A stretch of 5,481 nt of DNA, taken from positions 1 through 5,481 of the forward strand of contig JASHSZ010000559.1 of NCBI GenBank assembly GCA_030040815.1, read 5' to 3'. Origin of the DNA: Streptosporangiaceae bacterium (GTDB lineage: Bacteria; Actinomycetota; Actinomycetes; Streptosporangiales; Streptosporangiaceae). The notes under the pieces are model-generated. The model was not told the origin of the DNA, did no database searches, and was given only the letters and a program-made list of their open reading frames with translations. The position numbers and the translations under genes are program-made. Positions 1 to 5,379 of this stretch are shown piece after piece. How positions within the stretch are numbered: the stretch's first letter is position 1; every line of letters begins with the position of its first letter.

Positions 1-936
1 CGGGTGCTCAAGCTCGCAGACGACCACCGGGAAGCCCGCCCTGGTCAGCCGCCAAGCCGCGCCCGTCGCCAGGTCGCCACCGCCGCGCAGCAGTACCAGA
101 GTGTCCGCGCACCCGGCTGGCCCGCGCGTCGATGGTGGGCAGCGGGCTGGATCCTCGCCGCCGCGGTGCAGAGCCACGACCTCGGCGAGGATGGACATCG
201 CGATCTCGCGCGGCGTCTCGGCCCCGAGTTCCACGCCGATCGGGGCCCGCACCCGGTCCAGGTCGCAGGCCGGGATGCCGCGGGCCAGCAACTGCGCTCG
301 GGTGGTTTGCCAGCGACGGCCGCTGCCAATGACGCCGACCGATCGCATTCCGGCCGCGAGTAGCGGCGGCAGGACATCGAGATCCACCAGCATGCTGCGC
401 GCCACTACAACCGCGTGTGTCTGGTCGGCGCGCACTGCCCCGATCGCGTCGGTCACTGGCCCCGGGATCAGCATGTCTGCGTCCGGCAATCGGTCCCTGG
501 TGACCATCTCGGGGCGATCATCGGTGGCCACCACGCGCAGCCCGAGCCAATGTGCGAGCGACGCCACCTCGCGACCGACATGTCCGCAGCCCACGACCAG
601 CACGGTCGGGTCCGGCAGGTACGGCTCGACGTAGACGGCTACTTCGCCGCCGCATACGCCGGGATCGCCGCTGCCCGGCTCGAGCAGCTCGTAGTGCAGC
701 AGCCGGGTGCGGCCGTCGGCCAGCGCACGGCGTGCCTCGGCGATAACCCTGGCCTCCATCTCGCCGCCGCCGACGCTGCCCGAGCACCGGCCGTCTGCCC
801 ACACCAGCATCTTCGATCCGGCGTGCCGGGGTACTGACTGCCTGGTTTCCACCACCGTCGCGAGTGCCACCGGCTCACCTCCGTCGGCTGCTGCCAGGAG
901 CTCCCGCATGAGTGCGGCATTACCGTGTGCCGACAT
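1..936 (-). CDS. yqeB: XdhC-YqeB fusion, Mo-hydroxylase maturation protein (C-terminus outside window)
   Basis: The open frame gives 312 residues and runs off the left edge without a stop. Residues 1 to about 260 are an XdhC/CoxI domain: SVPRHAGSKM (34-43), GSVGGGEMEA (53-62), CGGE near 95-98 with a following EP, a Rossmann motif GCGHVG (116-121) and GAETPREIA (238-246). XdhC proteins bind molybdenum cofactor and help modify it (sulfuration) before insertion into xanthine dehydrogenase-type enzymes. After a short linker, a second nucleotide-binding start appears, LLRGGGDLATGAAWRL (282-297) then AGFPVVV, which is the N-terminal signature of the YqeB/EF2563 family tied to selenium-dependent molybdenum hydroxylases. 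E. coli YqeB (about 541 aa, from memory) has the same two-part layout, so roughly 230 residues probably lie beyond the edge. The ATG at 936 overlaps the stop of the upstream catalytic gene by one base (TGATG); only a weak purine-rich GAGCAGG precedes it, so translation is probably coupled. Family assignment is firm; the selenium role is inferred from the family. Confidence 0.9.
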   Translation of the reverse strand, partial: MSAHGNAALMRELLAAADGGEPVALATVVETRQSVPRHAGSKMLVWADGRCSGSVGGGEMEARVIAEARRALADGRTRLLHYELLEPGSGDPGVCGGEVAVYVEPYLPDPTVLVVGCGHVGREVASLAHWLGLRVVATDDRPEMVTRDRLPDADMLIPGPVTDAIGAVRADQTHAVVVARSMLVDLDVLPPLLAAGMRSVGVIGSGRRWQTTRAQLLARGIPACDLDRVRAPIGVELGAETPREIAMSILAEVVALHRGGEDPARCPPSTRGPAGCADTLVLLRGGGDLATGAAWRLTRAGFPVVVCELEHP

Positions 937-938
937 CA
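934..938 (-). promoter_or_regulatory. TGATG stop-start overlap, xdhD-like gene / yqeB
   Basis: The TGA of the catalytic gene (938-936) and the ATG of the maturase gene (936-934) share one base, the same junction type as the preceding pair. With no strong Shine-Dalgarno in front of yqeB, its translation probably depends on the upstream gene. Confidence 0.8.
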
Positions 939-3926
939 CCGCGCCTGCTCGCGTAGCGCGGTCCAGACACGCTCTGGCGTCAGCGGAATGACGTTGATGG
1001 CAGCGCCGGTCGCGTCCAGGACCGCGTTGCGAACTGCCGGCGCCACGCCGTCCATCGGGATCTCGCCCACGGCCTTCGCCCCGAACGGGCCGGTCGTTTC
1101 CATCGTCTCCACGAGGATGACCTGCATGGGCGGAGTGTCATCGGCCCGGTAGATCCAGTACGGACCGAGCCTGTCGTTCACGGGGCGGCCCGCCGCATCC
1201 AGGACGACCTCTTCGGTCAGCGCGTATCCGAGTGCTTGCAGCATGCCGCCCTCCACCTGCCCGCTGGCGAAGACCGGGTTGATCGCGACCCCGCAGTCGA
1301 CCGCCATGACCAGACTGGTAACCGTGACCTGGCCGGTGGCCGTGTCCACCTCAACCTCGGCGCCCTGGGCGGCGAAGACCGGCGGAGAGTCGGGCGCAAC
1401 GTGCGACCCCGTTCCCATGATCTGTTCCTGATCCTTGGCGTGCAGCGCCTCCAGGGCCAGGTCCGCCAGACAGACCGAGCGCCCGTCCGGCGCCCAGGCA
1501 CGCCGTTCGTGCAGCGCGATGGCGTCCGGATCTGACCGGCCGAGCATCACTGCCGCCCGTGCCATGATCCGGCCGCGCACCGCCTCGGCGGCCTTCTTCA
1601 CCGCCATGCCGGAGATGTAGGTCGTGCTGGATGCGTACGCGCCGACGTCGAACGGCGTCACATCGGTATCGGCCGCATAGACGATGATGTCGTCGACCGG
1701 TACGCCCAGCACCTCGGCGGCGATCTGCGCCAGCACCGTGTCCGCACCGGTGCCGAGGTCGGTGGCGCCAATCAGCATGTTGAATGATCCGTCGTCGTTC
1801 ATCTTGATCGAGCATGCACCCATGTCTGCGCCTGGTATCCCGGACCCGGACATGCACAGGGCAAACCCGATGCCCCGCCGCACGTCTGGCCGGTCCCCGG
1901 GCTCGCGCCAGGCACGGTCGCGGCGCCGCTCCCACCCGATGGCCTTCAGGACCTGGGCCACGCACTCCTGCGTTCCGCAACTGGTGACCCGCGGCAGGTC
2001 TTCATCGGCGATATCCGCCACGCCGCCGCGCTCGTTCAGGCGCGGCACGATGTCGAGTGGGTCACCCGTGCGCACCCAGTTCCGGCGGCGGAACTCCACC
2101 GGGTCCAGGCCAAGGACCCTGGCGATGTCGTCCATGTGCGACTCGAGCGCGAAGTGCGCCTGCGGTGCACCGTAGCCGCGGAAGGCGCCCGCGACCGGGC
2201 CGTTGGTGTAGGCGACATCGCAGCTGAACCGTTTCGCCGGGCAGTTGTAAGAGGACAGGCCGCGGGTGCCGGTCACCGACTGCACCGTGAAGCCATGCGT
2301 GCCGTACGGGCCAGTGTTCGCCACGACCCGCATATCCTGGGCCACCAGCGTGCCGTCAGAGCGGACGCCGGTCCGGAACGTGATCGTCTGCGCGTGCCGT
2401 GTTCGCGCCGCCGCGAACTCCTCCTCCCGGCTGAGCTGCAGCCGGACCGGGCGGCGCGTTGCGAGCACCAGATGACCGACGATGTCCTCGATAAGCATCT
2501 CCTGCTTGCCGCCGAATCCAGCGCCGATCCGCGGCTTGATCACGCGGATTCGCTTCACCGGCAGCCCGAGCAGCGGGGCAACCATGCGGCGTACGTGGAA
2601 CGGGACCTGAGTCGACGTGCGGAGCACCAGTCGCTCATCCTCGTCGAGCCAGCCGATCGTCACGTGCGGCTCGATCGAGCAGTGCTGGACTGGCTGGACG
2701 TGGAAGGTTTCCTCGACGACACGATCGGCCGCCGCCAGGGCCGACTCGATGTCTGGCACGGTCGCGCCCTCGATGTGGCTGCTGATGTTGCGGGCCGCTG
2801 CGTGAATGCCCACGCTGTCGTCCTCGTCGTGGATCACCGGAGCGCCTGGCGCCAGCGCCTGCGTCTCGTCGAATACCGCCGGGAGGATCTCGTAGCTCAC
2901 CTTGATCCGGCGGCAAGCCTCGGCGGCGATCTCCTCCGTCTCGGCAGCGACCGCGGCTACCCTGTCGCCGACATGCCGCACCTTGTCGTCAAAGCTCACC
3001 TGGTCCCACGGGTAGGGATTGGGCCACGACTGGCCGCCCGAGGCGTACTTGACTCGCGGGGTGTTGCCGCCGTGCACCACCGCGTGCACGCCGGCCAACT
3101 GGCGGGCCTGCGAGTCGTCAATGGCCACGATGCGGGCATGGGCGTACGGACTGCGCAGCACCTTCGCATGCAGCATGCCGCGCATCTCCACGTCGTCGGT
3201 GAACGCAGCGTTGCCCTTCACTAGCCGCACGGCATCGATCTTGTGCTCGGGCCTGCCGACTACGGCTGTGCTCGCGACGTCGGCCACGACGACGAGGCGC
3301 GGCGTGCCCAGCGACGCCCGCTCACTATGACCGCCTAACCCGTTTCCACTGACCGGGCGCCCTAGTGCCCGGTCAGTGCCCGCCGGCTCGGCACCACTGC
3401 TGGGCACGCCGTCCGGGCTGGTCAGGCGCGGGACTGTCAGGGCCTCCATGGGCGGGGGCTTTTCCCCGCGCAGCGCCGCGGCGGCTCGCTGCACTGCCTC
3501 GACCACCTTGACATAGCCGGTCTCACGGTCGAGAACTCCCGACAGCGCGTCTCGGATCTCGGACTCCGATGGATCCTCATTGCGCTTCAGCAGCGCCTCG
3601 GTCGCCAGAACGAGTGCGCCAGCCGAGTAACCGGACTGTAGCGCCCCGGCGTCCACGATTGCCTCCTGGATCGGATGGAGCGTGCCCATCGCCGCGTTGA
3701 GGTGCTCGACCGTGGTCACGTCGTGGCCACCGGCCTGGGCCGCGAGCAGCACATCCGCGGCGACCAGCCGACCGTCGACCAGCACGGCCGCTGCGCCGGT
3801 CTCGCCCGTGCCTGACCCGTACCGGACGCTGAAGCAGCCCTCGCGGCGCAGCAACGCCAGCAGCGAATCGCCGGGAGCGCAGTCAAGCTGCTTATCGACG
3901 CCGTTCAGCGTGAGATGAATGCGCAT
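936..3926 (-). CDS. xdhD: XdhD-like molybdenum hydroxylase: degenerate [2Fe-2S] region fused to molybdopterin-binding catalytic subunit
   Basis: This is a 996-residue cytoplasmic oxidoreductase of the xanthine dehydrogenase family. Residues 1 to about 152 are a ferredoxin-like plus helical [2Fe-2S] region (LHPIQEAIVDAGALQSGY at 83-100, DRETGYVKVVEAV at 133-145), but all eight cluster cysteines are replaced. Residues about 155-225 form a Pro/Gly/Ser/Ala-rich linker. The Mo region follows: VRHVGDRVAAV (316-326), STQVPF with Gln440, GAGFGGKQ (468-475), AFRGYGAPQ (581-589), DLGTGADT (723-730), and GPFGAKAVGE (946-955) ending in the expected catalytic base Glu955. The frame stays open to 4145, but ATG 3926 is preferred: GGAGG lies 10 bases upstream, the family alignment begins at MRIHLTLNG, and the longer form would run deep into the FAD gene. 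The start shares one base with the FAD gene's stop, and the stop shares one base with the next start. E. coli XdhD (about 956 aa, from memory) matches in architecture and also lacks the cysteines. The substrate is unknown; a purine-like heterocycle is plausible. Confidence 0.93.
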   Translation of the reverse strand: MRIHLTLNGVDKQLDCAPGDSLLALLRREGCFSVRYGSGTGETGAAAVLVDGRLVAADVLLAAQAGGHDVTTVEHLNAAMGTLHPIQEAIVDAGALQSGYSAGALVLATEALLKRNEDPSESEIRDALSGVLDRETGYVKVVEAVQRAAAALRGEKPPPMEALTVPRLTSPDGVPSSGAEPAGTDRALGRPVSGNGLGGHSERASLGTPRLVVVADVASTAVVGRPEHKIDAVRLVKGNAAFTDDVEMRGMLHAKVLRSPYAHARIVAIDDSQARQLAGVHAVVHGGNTPRVKYASGGQSWPNPYPWDQVSFDDKVRHVGDRVAAVAAETEEIAAEACRRIKVSYEILPAVFDETQALAPGAPVIHDEDDSVGIHAAARNISSHIEGATVPDIESALAAADRVVEETFHVQPVQHCSIEPHVTIGWLDEDERLVLRTSTQVPFHVRRMVAPLLGLPVKRIRVIKPRIGAGFGGKQEMLIEDIVGHLVLATRRPVRLQLSREEEFAAARTRHAQTITFRTGVRSDGTLVAQDMRVVANTGPYGTHGFTVQSVTGTRGLSSYNCPAKRFSCDVAYTNGPVAGAFRGYGAPQAHFALESHMDDIARVLGLDPVEFRRRNWVRTGDPLDIVPRLNERGGVADIADEDLPRVTSCGTQECVAQVLKAIGWERRRDRAWREPGDRPDVRRGIGFALCMSGSGIPGADMGACSIKMNDDGSFNMLIGATDLGTGADTVLAQIAAEVLGVPVDDIIVYAADTDVTPFDVGAYASSTTYISGMAVKKAAEAVRGRIMARAAVMLGRSDPDAIALHERRAWAPDGRSVCLADLALEALHAKDQEQIMGTGSHVAPDSPPVFAAQGAEVEVDTATGQVTVTSLVMAVDCGVAINPVFASGQVEGGMLQALGYALTEEVVLDAAGRPVNDRLGPYWIYRADDTPPMQVILVETMETTGPFGAKAVGEIPMDGVAPAVRNAVLDATGAAINVIPLTPERVWTALREQAR
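3347..3378. repeat. Perfect 12-bp inverted repeat with 8-base loop inside the xdhD-like gene
   Basis: Left arm CACTGACCGGGC (3347-3358) and right arm GCCCGGTCAGTG (3367-3378) are exact reverse complements around GCCCTAGT. The element codes for residues 183-194 (GTDRALGRPVSG) in the linker between the Fe-S-like and Mo regions. In mRNA it would form a strong hairpin. No run of U follows, so it does not look like an intrinsic terminator. It may be the remnant of a small palindromic insertion. Confidence 0.75.
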
Positions 3927-3928
3927 CA
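3924..3928 (-). promoter_or_regulatory. TGATG stop-start overlap, FAD gene / xdhD-like gene
   Basis: The TGA of the FAD subunit (3928-3926) and the ATG of the catalytic subunit (3926-3924) share one base. This arrangement favours re-initiation by the same ribosome and suggests balanced synthesis of the two subunits. Confidence 0.8.
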
Positions 3929-4684
3929 CGTGATCGCCTCCACTGCCCGCCGCGCAAGCGTGACCGCCAGGGAGCGGCGGTACGCCGATGAGCCGCGGAA
4001 GTCGCCGGGTGGGTCGAGCCGCCCTGCCCAGTCCGCCCCGTCCGCACCGGACTGAATCAGCGCCGTTCTGTTGACCACCGGCCTCGCAGCGACACCGCTC
4101 AGCGCCAGCCGCACGCCGCCGGCCGCACGGCGCGCCACTGCGCACACGATCGGCCCGTCTGCATGCGTCCGGGCCGTTCGGGCGGCGGCAATACTGCCGT
4201 CACCCACGATGCAAACGCGGGTGATGATCGCGGCCCGCAGCCACCGATGATCCGCCAGCGCCTCGTCGAGGGCGATTTCCTGCAGGCCATCCGAATGTGC
4301 CAGCGTCAGCGTCGCATCGCAGGCGAGCAGGGTAGCCAGGAATTCGCTCTCCCAGTGGCCGGTTGCAACGCAGCCGCCGACGGTCGCGGCGGCCCGCAGC
4401 GTGCTGGGAGCTTCGCGTCGGGCCGCGTCCCGGACCGCGGCGGGCACGACCGCCTCATCGGCGATCTGCTGCAGCGTCGCGGTCGCGCCGACAGAACATC
4501 CGGTGGGGGTCGCCTCGATCCGGTCCAGGCCAAGTGCCTGCAGGTCGACAATCTCGATCTGGCCGCCGGACGGCGCGGCGTTCACCTTAGTGCCGCCGGC
4601 GATTAGGATCGCGCCGCCGCGGTGTGCGAGCTCGAGCGCGCCGTCCAGAGTGAGAGGCCGCCAGTAGACCGACACGGTGCCCAT
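3926..4684 (-). CDS. ygfM: FAD-binding subunit of molybdenum hydroxylase (YgfM/CoxM-like)
   Basis: A 252-residue protein of the FAD_binding_5 / CO dehydrogenase medium-subunit type, which normally passes electrons from the Fe-S clusters to an acceptor through FAD. Visible signatures are YWRPLTLDGALELA at the N-terminus, AGGTKVNAAP (29-38; the flavin-binding glycine loop, usually AGGTDL), TVGGCVATG (101-109; usually TIGGNIA) and the C-terminal FRGSSAYRRSLA (229-240) typical of the CO_deh_flav_C domain. Length is slightly short for the family (about 260-290) but close to E. coli YgfM (about 259 aa, from memory), which also has an AGGxKxNAxP loop. The ATG at 4684 is the only reasonable start: an in-frame TAG lies at 4718-4720 with no ATG, GTG or TTG codon between. 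No good Shine-Dalgarno sequence sits at normal distance (GAGGG is 19 bases away). It is the first gene of the three-gene unit, and its TGA overlaps the xdhD-like ATG by one base. Confidence 0.92.
   Translation of the reverse strand: MGTVSVYWRPLTLDGALELAHRGGAILIAGGTKVNAAPSGGQIEIVDLQALGLDRIEATPTGCSVGATATLQQIADEAVVPAAVRDAARREAPSTLRAAATVGGCVATGHWESEFLATLLACDATLTLAHSDGLQEIALDEALADHRWLRAAIITRVCIVGDGSIAAARTARTHADGPIVCAVARRAAGGVRLALSGVAARPVVNRTALIQSGADGADWAGRLDPPGDFRGSSAYRRSLAVTLARRAVEAIT
3937..3941 (-). promoter_or_regulatory. Ribosome binding site GGAGG deciding the xdhD-like start
   Basis: GGAGG on the minus strand sits 10 bases before the ATG at 3926, inside the last codons of the FAD gene. It supports starting the catalytic protein at MRIHL rather than at the in-frame ATG at 4145. 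Confidence 0.65.
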
Positions 4685-4866: not shown

Positions 4867-5379
4867 TCAGGCTGTGGGCTTGGTGGTGGCTGGCTGCCGG
4901 AGCGAAGGCAAGATCTGATCGGCGAAAGCCGCAACTTTCTGCTGCCAGCCGTCCTCCAACGGCCCCTTGATGCCGGTCACCAGAACGGCTGCCTCAGTGA
5001 CCTTAATCAGGCCCTTGCCTTCGAGCACTTCATTCATGATCGGGATGATCCGCTCCCACCGGTCCAGTTCTTCCTGGGTGGGCATTGTCCCGGTTTTCCT
5101 ATCGGGCCCCGGGGCACCCTGGGTCGTCAGCACCGCGTACCTGGTTCCTGGCTCCAGGCGTAGCTTGCGGATGAATCTGCGGGCGTTTGCCTTCGGCTTT
5201 CCGAGCCGGCCAGGGGAGCTGAACACGTACAGGTCTGCCGTTGGCAGTTTCTTCGGATTGGCATCCCGGACATGCTGGACTCGGACCGCTACGCCCTGGG
5301 CCGCCATAACTTTCTTGAACTCATCCGCGACCATAGCGCCGTTACCGAATTTCGAAGCATGGTAATAGGCGATATTCAT
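4867..5379 (-). CDS. Flavodoxin-like protein
   Basis: A 170-residue soluble protein with the flavodoxin-like layout. The N-terminal strand MNIAYYHAS leads into an FMN phosphate-binding loop, HASKFGNG (7-14, compare the classical T/S-x-T-G-N-T), followed by an amphipathic helix. SSPGRLGKP (54-62) fits the second flavin-contacting loop, and LTTQGAPGP (84-92) the third. No signal peptide or membrane segment is seen, and the tail (RQPATTKPTA) looks disordered. The family carries FMN and acts in one- or two-electron transfer, or as a quinone/menaquinone-type reductase; the exact partner cannot be read from sequence. The start is well supported: GAGGAG lies 11 bases upstream of the ATG. The gene is less GC-rich (about 52-62% in lines counted by eye) than the downstream operon. 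It is separated from the FAD gene by 182 bases on the same strand, so it may be a separate unit or share a transcript. A role as redox partner of the Mo hydroxylase is only an inference. Confidence 0.85.
   Translation of the reverse strand: MNIAYYHASKFGNGAMVADEFKKVMAAQGVAVRVQHVRDANPKKLPTADLYVFSSPGRLGKPKANARRFIRKLRLEPGTRYAVLTTQGAPGPDRKTGTMPTQEELDRWERIIPIMNEVLEGKGLIKVTEAAVLVTGIKGPLEDGWQQKVAAFADQILPSLRQPATTKPTA

Follow-up and report, generated by a model that had tools for sequence, protein, structure and literature searches.

An XdhD-like molybdenum enzyme that keeps its iron-sulfur-type domain with none of the eight cluster cysteines, a loss that happened twice

Enzymes of the xanthine oxidase family are known by an internal wire that links molybdenum (Mo) through two iron-sulfur (Fe-S) clusters to flavin adenine dinucleotide (FAD). 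How does such an enzyme work when the ligands of both clusters are gone? The question is raised by an XdhD-like gene, encoding a fused Fe-S-type and Mo-binding protein, on contig JASHSZ010000559.1 of a Streptosporangiaceae bacterium (assembly GCA_030040815.1); the stretch of 5,481 nucleotides that was analyzed is referred to as the window. An original prediction, made from the letters of the window, had claimed that the protein lost all eight [2Fe-2S] cluster cysteines, and the translation gives exactly the residues and spacing claimed (x4, x2, x11; 98/101; 133/135). The eight ligand positions are occupied by Ser38, Thr43, Ala46 and Asp58 at the site of cluster II, and by Ser98, Ser101, Asp133 and Glu135 at the site of cluster I.

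Ligand columns were set by alignment with E. coli XdhC, which has all eight ligand cysteines, and with the Desulfovibrio aldehyde oxidoreductases. The same alignment places Cys16 and Cys31 off the ligand positions, as had been proposed. Misalignment as the cause of the missing cysteines was ruled out because the spacing and the flanking family residues fix the register. In the numbering of human xanthine oxidoreductase, the cluster I positions are 113, 116, 148 and 150 (PMC8615798). We then scored the eight columns across the clade in an alignment of 200 rows, comprising the window protein (P0001), 120 database proteins and 79 of 80 genome loci (L018 was omitted as a precaution). Cysteine is found in 1 of 1,600 ligand cells, and three cells are gaps. 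In order, the columns contain Ser 192 and Ala 7; Thr 196; Ala 165, Ser 19, Gly 11 and Asp 4; Asp 174 and Glu 25; Ser 198 and Gly 2; Ser 188 and Ala 11; Asp 199 and Cys 1; and Glu 200. Each replacement dominates its own column (81-100% after weighting), and six of the eight columns rank by entropy among the 49 most conserved of 150. The only row with a ligand cysteine, L050 (10001-13003), carries it at position 133 in the motif VLCRETGY, possibly as a relic or a reversion.

To place this loss among paralogues, a census was taken of 48 distinct Fe-S domains from sequence stretches of nine relatives' genomes, E. coli and the window. The nine genomes gave 54 matches, part of which were scored; the XdhD proteins of G001, G003, G005 and G009 stand outside the census and are counted in the 200-row alignment as L001, L033, L050 and L076. 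All eight cysteines are present in 36 of the 48 domains, and the relatives therefore keep normal Fe-S paralogues. The other rows are seven XdhD domains with none, four fragments with cysteine at every ligand position present, and one planctomycete subunit with four of eight. In this last subunit (L129, G008 contig 10, open reading frame 1471-2160, minus strand) the cluster II ligands are aligned as D, D, D and G with cluster I intact, apparently a half-lost case in another Mo-hydroxylase family.

E. coli XdhD, which the original prediction named as sharing the trait, does lack the ligands: together with its 120 closest database proteins (121 rows) it has no cysteine in 968 ligand cells, with six gaps, and the commonest residues are D, A, D, S, S, N, S and D. 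The accompanying claim of a clade trait stands for the window lineage, where the loss is total, but not for XdhD as a single clade. The fused XdhD of Cetobacterium somerae (L169) has all eight ligand cysteines, as do 117 of its 120 best listed database relatives; two others have seven and one is without the domain. The two proteins with seven (P0289 and P0294; Cys to Phe and Cys to Tyr) may reflect sequencing error or a first step of loss. Intact relatives are also found on the side of the window clade, which groups with haloarchaeal Fe-S/Mo pairs and with unfused FAD, Fe-S and Mo operons of Acidimicrobiia (the three-subunit group, L153-L161), whose Fe-S subunit is intact in nine of nine. Five haloarchaeal Fe-S subunits were examined; three have eight cysteines and two have one Ser. 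Two haloarchaeal plasmids (L167:4853-5431 and L168:2724-3272) carry two Fe-S/Mo pairs each, with Ser as the third cluster II ligand of one pair in both genera, and on L167 they adjoin yqeB, selD and yqeC.

On a quick tree of 58 Mo-domain rows, the cysteine-less rows need two changes. Constraining them together is 213 log-likelihood units worse (approximately unbiased test, p-AU 5.6e-56). The Shimodaira-Hasegawa-like approximate likelihood ratio test (SH-aLRT) gives a support of 90 to the branch that joins the window clade to its intact relatives, and of 100 to the one that unites the E. coli type and the intact fused XdhD. The Fe-S domain, tested without its ligand columns, agrees on two losses (p-AU 0.0057), and in its tree a branch with support 99.8 separates the E. 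coli type plus the intact fused XdhD from the other rows. Furthermore, the spacer between ligands 1 and 2 is four residues long in 198 of 199 window-clade rows, in all nine rows of the three-subunit group and in all three haloarchaeal rows, and five residues long in all 106 E. coli-type and all 107 intact fused rows. A single loss shared with E. coli XdhD is thus rejected by both tree tests and by the spacer, and the two lineages lost their cluster ligands separately. In a first tree, built without the intact fused XdhD, the E. coli type had come out next to the three-subunit group (SH-aLRT 92); with the fuller set of rows it joined the fused group. The family model TIGR03313, named 'Mo/Fe-S-binding subunit', passes E. 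coli XdhD, which has no ligand cysteine (2122.8 bits), and not the intact Cetobacterium protein (1032.5 bits; curated cut-off 1101.9). The window protein, at 655.5 bits, is also below the cut-off.

Purifying selection acts on the cysteine-less domain, in line with the earlier proposal of a fold under selection, with ratios of nonsynonymous to synonymous substitution rates (dN/dS) of 0.046-0.151 in five genome pairs and of about 0.05-0.16 over the Fe-S and Mo regions. The protein consists of the Fe-S-type domain (residues 1-155), a variable linker (156-215) and the Mo-cofactor domains (220-990), which match PF02738, PF20256 and PF01315 of the xanthine oxidase family. An AlphaFold2 model (predicted local distance difference test score 89.7) aligns 868 residues over 1..993 with the D. 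gigas aldehyde oxidoreductase 1sij at a root-mean-square deviation of 2.3, and predicts the canonical fold with the Fe-S-type domain docked normally. At the Mo site, every group counted has Glu at the position of the catalytic base Glu955, and none has lost the loop residues Gly468, Gly472, Lys474 and Gln475. The Glu632 column has Glu in 131/131 window-clade, 117/117 E. coli-type, 112/118 intact fused and 9/9 three-subunit rows; exceptions are D (3) or G (2) in five haloarchaeal rows and a gap in E. coli XdhA. Residue 583 is Arg in all 131 window-clade rows and Gln in all 117 E. coli-type rows. The human Cys150 column is acidic in both lineages, with Glu in 200 of 200 window-clade rows and, among the 121 rows of the E. 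coli type, Asp in 120 and a gap in one; in the D. gigas aldehyde oxidoreductase the cysteine of this column contacts the pterin amine. Separately, His68 of the window protein (3725-3723) is kept in 99% of window-clade rows and not in the intact or E. coli-type groups.

These comparisons show a predicted xanthine-oxidase-family Mo enzyme in which both sets of cluster ligands have been lost, the domain is kept under selection and the checked Mo-site residues are intact. A structural use of the domain is supported by the near-invariant Gln97 and Arg134 and by the canonical dock in the model. As to substrate, Li et al. propose, from a model prediction, that E. coli Glu606 orients urate for yanthine formation (PMC12507026). 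Because its equivalent Glu632 is kept, a urate/yanthine-type reaction is our best guess.

Table 1. Positions of the genes, domain and residues discussed, on the coordinates of the window.
Feature	Position	Strand	Remarks
Flavodoxin-like gene	4867..5379	minus	upstream; PF00258 21.1 bits, below cut-off 25
YgfM-like FAD-type subunit	3926..4684	minus	directly upstream of the xdhD-like gene; its stop overlaps the xdhD start
XdhD-like fused Fe-S/Mo gene	936..3926	minus	profile matches, AlphaFold2 model
Cysteine-less Fe-S-type domain	3480..3926	minus	PF01799 Fer2_2, 67.4 bits; 0/8 ligand Cys
Former cluster II ligand codons	3753..3815	minus	Ser38 3815-3813, Thr43 3800-3798, Ala46 3791-3789, Asp58 3755-3753
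Former cluster I ligand codons	3522..3635	minus	Ser98 3635-3633, Ser101 3626-3624, Asp133 3530-3528, Glu135 3524-3522
Near-invariant cluster I neighbors	Gln97 3638-3636, Arg134 3527-3525	minus	alignment columns
Glu632	2031..2033	minus	aligns with E. coli XdhD Glu606, proposed urate-orienting residue
Glu955	1062..1064	minus	xanthine oxidase family catalytic-base position
XdhC-YqeB fusion	1..939	minus	cut by window end; Mo-enzyme maturation and selenium-cofactor protein

Neighboring genes were counted over 80 relative loci, and the counts are lower bounds because 19 loci are 12 kb or less. XdhC was found in 56 loci, YqeC in 38 and a match to E. coli YqeB in 57 (partly via its XdhC half), together with a TRZ/ATZ-type amidohydrolase in 52 and an F420-type LLM oxidoreductase in 37; representative amidohydrolase and LLM proteins fall below every NCBIfam cut-off shown. 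Unlike the E. coli XdhD neighborhood, the 80 loci gave no match to YgeX, UacX, XanQ or D-aminoacylase, and few to YgfK (6), YgeY (4) or HyuA (2). An F420 variant of the pathway has been suggested by Li et al. for Chloroflexota (PMC12507026); our set fits this variant, though most E. coli downstream genes were unseen nearby. In the nearest genome relative found (L001, a Streptosporangiaceae metagenome-assembled genome, 90% identical), the same XdhD and XdhC-YqeB genes are followed by adenine deaminase and, farther on, by an NCS1 nucleobase permease. XdhC and YqeB are fused in one gene in L001 (12994-14658) as in the window, and the 555-residue L001 homologue passes TIGR03309 (290.8 bits against a cut-off of 220), a fusion that would tie Mo-enzyme maturation to selenium insertion factors.

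The selenium gene selD is present in nine of nine relatives' genomes. Of 198 genomes of Acidimicrobiia 140 have it, including all ten with XdhD (p 0.036); within the ten, the match in G134 begins at residue 205, that in G177 is split in two and that in G165 contains an in-frame TGA. For eight of the nine relatives (G002-G009), a TGA lies in frame within the best match to selD, and their SelD is therefore probably a selenoprotein; the genome closest to the window, G001, lacks such a codon. In C. difficile, selD and yqeB are linked to growth on xanthine and urate (PMC11448449). Because selD is common in the class, the linkage of yqeB, yqeC and selD is no more than suggestive of a selenium-dependent Mo hydroxylase.

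The partner subunit is also retained. The YgfM-like protein matches PF00941 and scores 96.7 bits against TIGR03312, below the cut-off of 241.5; its model folds like CoxM (1n61_C, TMq 0.81), and its gene was found in 69 of 82 sources (the 80 loci, E. coli and the window). In all 65 FAD-subunit rows (64 from the window clade and E. coli YgfM), the Asn of the GGN motif and the Asp of S-x-D are absent, and Ser122 (numbered as in E. coli XdhB) does not vary. Joint decay of the FAD site with the clusters was considered and weakened by a control: the same positions vary in the partners of intact Fe-S subunits (N/A in L183, N/G in L184, E/Q in L191, R/D in L185-L188), and for this reason loss of flavin is not claimed.

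Of the three mechanisms that the original prediction had listed (another electron route, a non-redox or self-contained reaction, use of the domain for assembly), with none chosen, the structural use gains support as described and a self-contained reaction is possible. We hypothesize that the cysteine-less domain would serve as a wall of the Mo-pterin pocket, with the near-invariant Gln97 and the acidic residue at the pterin-contact column, and as the place where the FAD-type subunit docks. The least certain step is a closed redox cycle at the Mo centre, which probably carries selenium: it would take the oxygen from urate C6, giving yanthine, and pass it to a second purine, for example xanthine C8, giving urate. 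Overall, xanthine would be isomerized to yanthine, urate would act as co-substrate and the electrons would stay within the active site. Once the clusters were lost, Mo(IV) would be cut off from flavin, NAD and oxygen, and this would account for the disappearance of all eight ligands on two occasions. According to one review, xanthine oxidase-type sites can abstract and insert oxygen within one cycle, with pyrogallol transhydroxylase cited as precedent (PMC10420851). In favor of this explanation we count the total ligand loss, its two origins, purifying selection, the kept Glu955 and Glu632, the canonical dock, the yqeB/yqeC neighbors and selD. As a whole it is our leading explanation, held with rather less than half of our confidence; the self-contained Mo cycle, that is purine transhydroxylation, is favored about as tentatively. 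More speculative again is the broader proposal of convergence, by which the window enzyme and E. coli XdhD would both be electrically insulated Mo(Se) purine transhydroxylases that discarded the entire internal electron chain as a source of electron leak.

Several points weigh against this proposal. Purified E. coli XdhD with a co-purified protein of about 30 kDa makes yanthine from urate with reduced nicotinamide adenine dinucleotide (NADH) (PMC12507026). A FAD-type subunit is retained that a self-contained enzyme would not obviously need, and its flavin-site residues vary also beside intact Fe-S subunits. Ligand columns 46 and 58 are of only middling conservation (entropy ranks 85 and 70 of 150). 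Intact relatives share the Glu606 equivalent, and therefore the reaction itself needs no cluster loss. Finally, the xanthine-to-yanthine proposal, the least certain part, is drawn from pathway logic.

The strongest competitor, which we consider unlikely, is wiring of the published type: NADH would reduce the FAD of the YgfM-like subunit, and electrons would go on to Mo with no clusters between, whether in a slow step over a long distance, by hopping from residue to residue or because the flavin has moved. Such wiring would account for the wide retention of the subunit gene. His68, the one hopping candidate seen, does not extend to the E. coli type, where the column is mostly Ala (0.92). In the canonical layout, which the model retains, the distance between Mo and FAD is too great for electrons to tunnel directly. 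Li et al. (2025) likened XdhD-YgfM to R. capsulatus xanthine dehydrogenase, with electrons passing from NAD(P)H through FAD to Mo (PMC12507026), and a commentary gives an AlphaFold3 interface score (ipTM) of 0.94 for the complex (PMC12990295). That route would find no cluster ligands to pass through in any of the 121 rows of the E. coli type. The yanthine assay speaks for NADH as donor; it contained 1 mM NADH and 10 uM enzyme, the last purification buffer contained 1 mM dithiothreitol, and no minus-NADH control is described in the sections covered of that paper (PMC12507026). The missing ligands go unmentioned in the parts covered of five open-licence papers (PMC12507026, PMC12990295, PMC2997495, PMC3958847 and PMC2276186, the last of which names the gene ygfN).

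Less likely still is that another redox protein or small donor (a ferredoxin, flavodoxin, F420 enzyme or thiol) reduces Mo or the pterin directly. The commentary calls the physiological donor of the clostridial enzyme undiscovered (PMC12990295), and the LLM genes could supply an F420 enzyme, but a simpler role for these is that of the purine reductase of the following step, which is what Li et al. suggest in Chloroflexota (PMC12507026). The flavodoxin-like gene of the window was rejected as a conserved donor, being found in 0 of 80 relative loci, and no ferredoxin-like family is prominent among the 30 commonest neighbor clusters. We regard it as improbable that a hard metal ion or an unusual cluster takes the place of [2Fe-2S] on the conserved Ser/Thr/Asp/Glu set: S, S, D and E are conserved at the cluster I site of the window clade, but the E. 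coli type has S, N, S and D there, the cluster II site reads S, T, A, D in the window clade and D, A, D, S in the E. coli type, each with an Ala, which cannot ligate, and a hydrogen-bond network accounts for the same conservation. A pseudoenzyme or decaying gene, which the loss of whole cofactor sites might suggest, is hardly credible given the low dN/dS, the kept Mo-site residues of the window clade and its conserved gene neighborhood.

Among known systems, the window resembles E. coli XdhD-YgfM (TIGR03313/TIGR03312) in having a FAD-type gene followed by a fused Fe-S/Mo gene, no ligand cysteines, the Glu606 equivalent and selenium-cofactor genes in the cluster; it differs in being 38% identical, under the TIGR03313 cut-off, with a separate loss, other replacement residues and Arg583. 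The three-subunit operons of Acidimicrobiia share the gene order, a Mo subunit 49-52% identical and the Glu606 equivalent, but have a separate Fe-S subunit with eight cysteines. C. somerae XdhD is likewise fused and lies in a uricolytic cluster (dpaL, YgeY-type, D-aminoacylase, SsnA, guaD, FAD-type and hydA genes), adjoining the YgfM-type gene, SsnA, guaD and dpaL, but it retains all its cysteines. The D. gigas and D. desulfuricans aldehyde oxidoreductases (1sij, 1dgj) are also single-chain Fe-S and Mo enzymes with, by the model, the same fold and dock; they differ in having two real [2Fe-2S] clusters and an aldehyde substrate. Pyrogallol:phloroglucinol transhydroxylase, in which Mo moves oxygen between two aromatic substrates with no net redox (PMC10420851), is comparable only in proposed working: it belongs to the dimethyl sulfoxide reductase family and has no kinship.

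A human variant that removes just one ligand, Cys150Phe, is recorded in connection with type 1 xanthinuria (PMC8615798). Here all eight ligands are gone in two lineages, one of which includes the E. coli urate reductase that is now engineered for gout and whose published scheme assumes NADH-to-Mo transfer. The textbook wiring seems not to apply to the window enzyme or to the E. coli XdhD branch, and the way in which Mo obtains electrons, or does without them, during uricolysis in the gut becomes a directly testable question.

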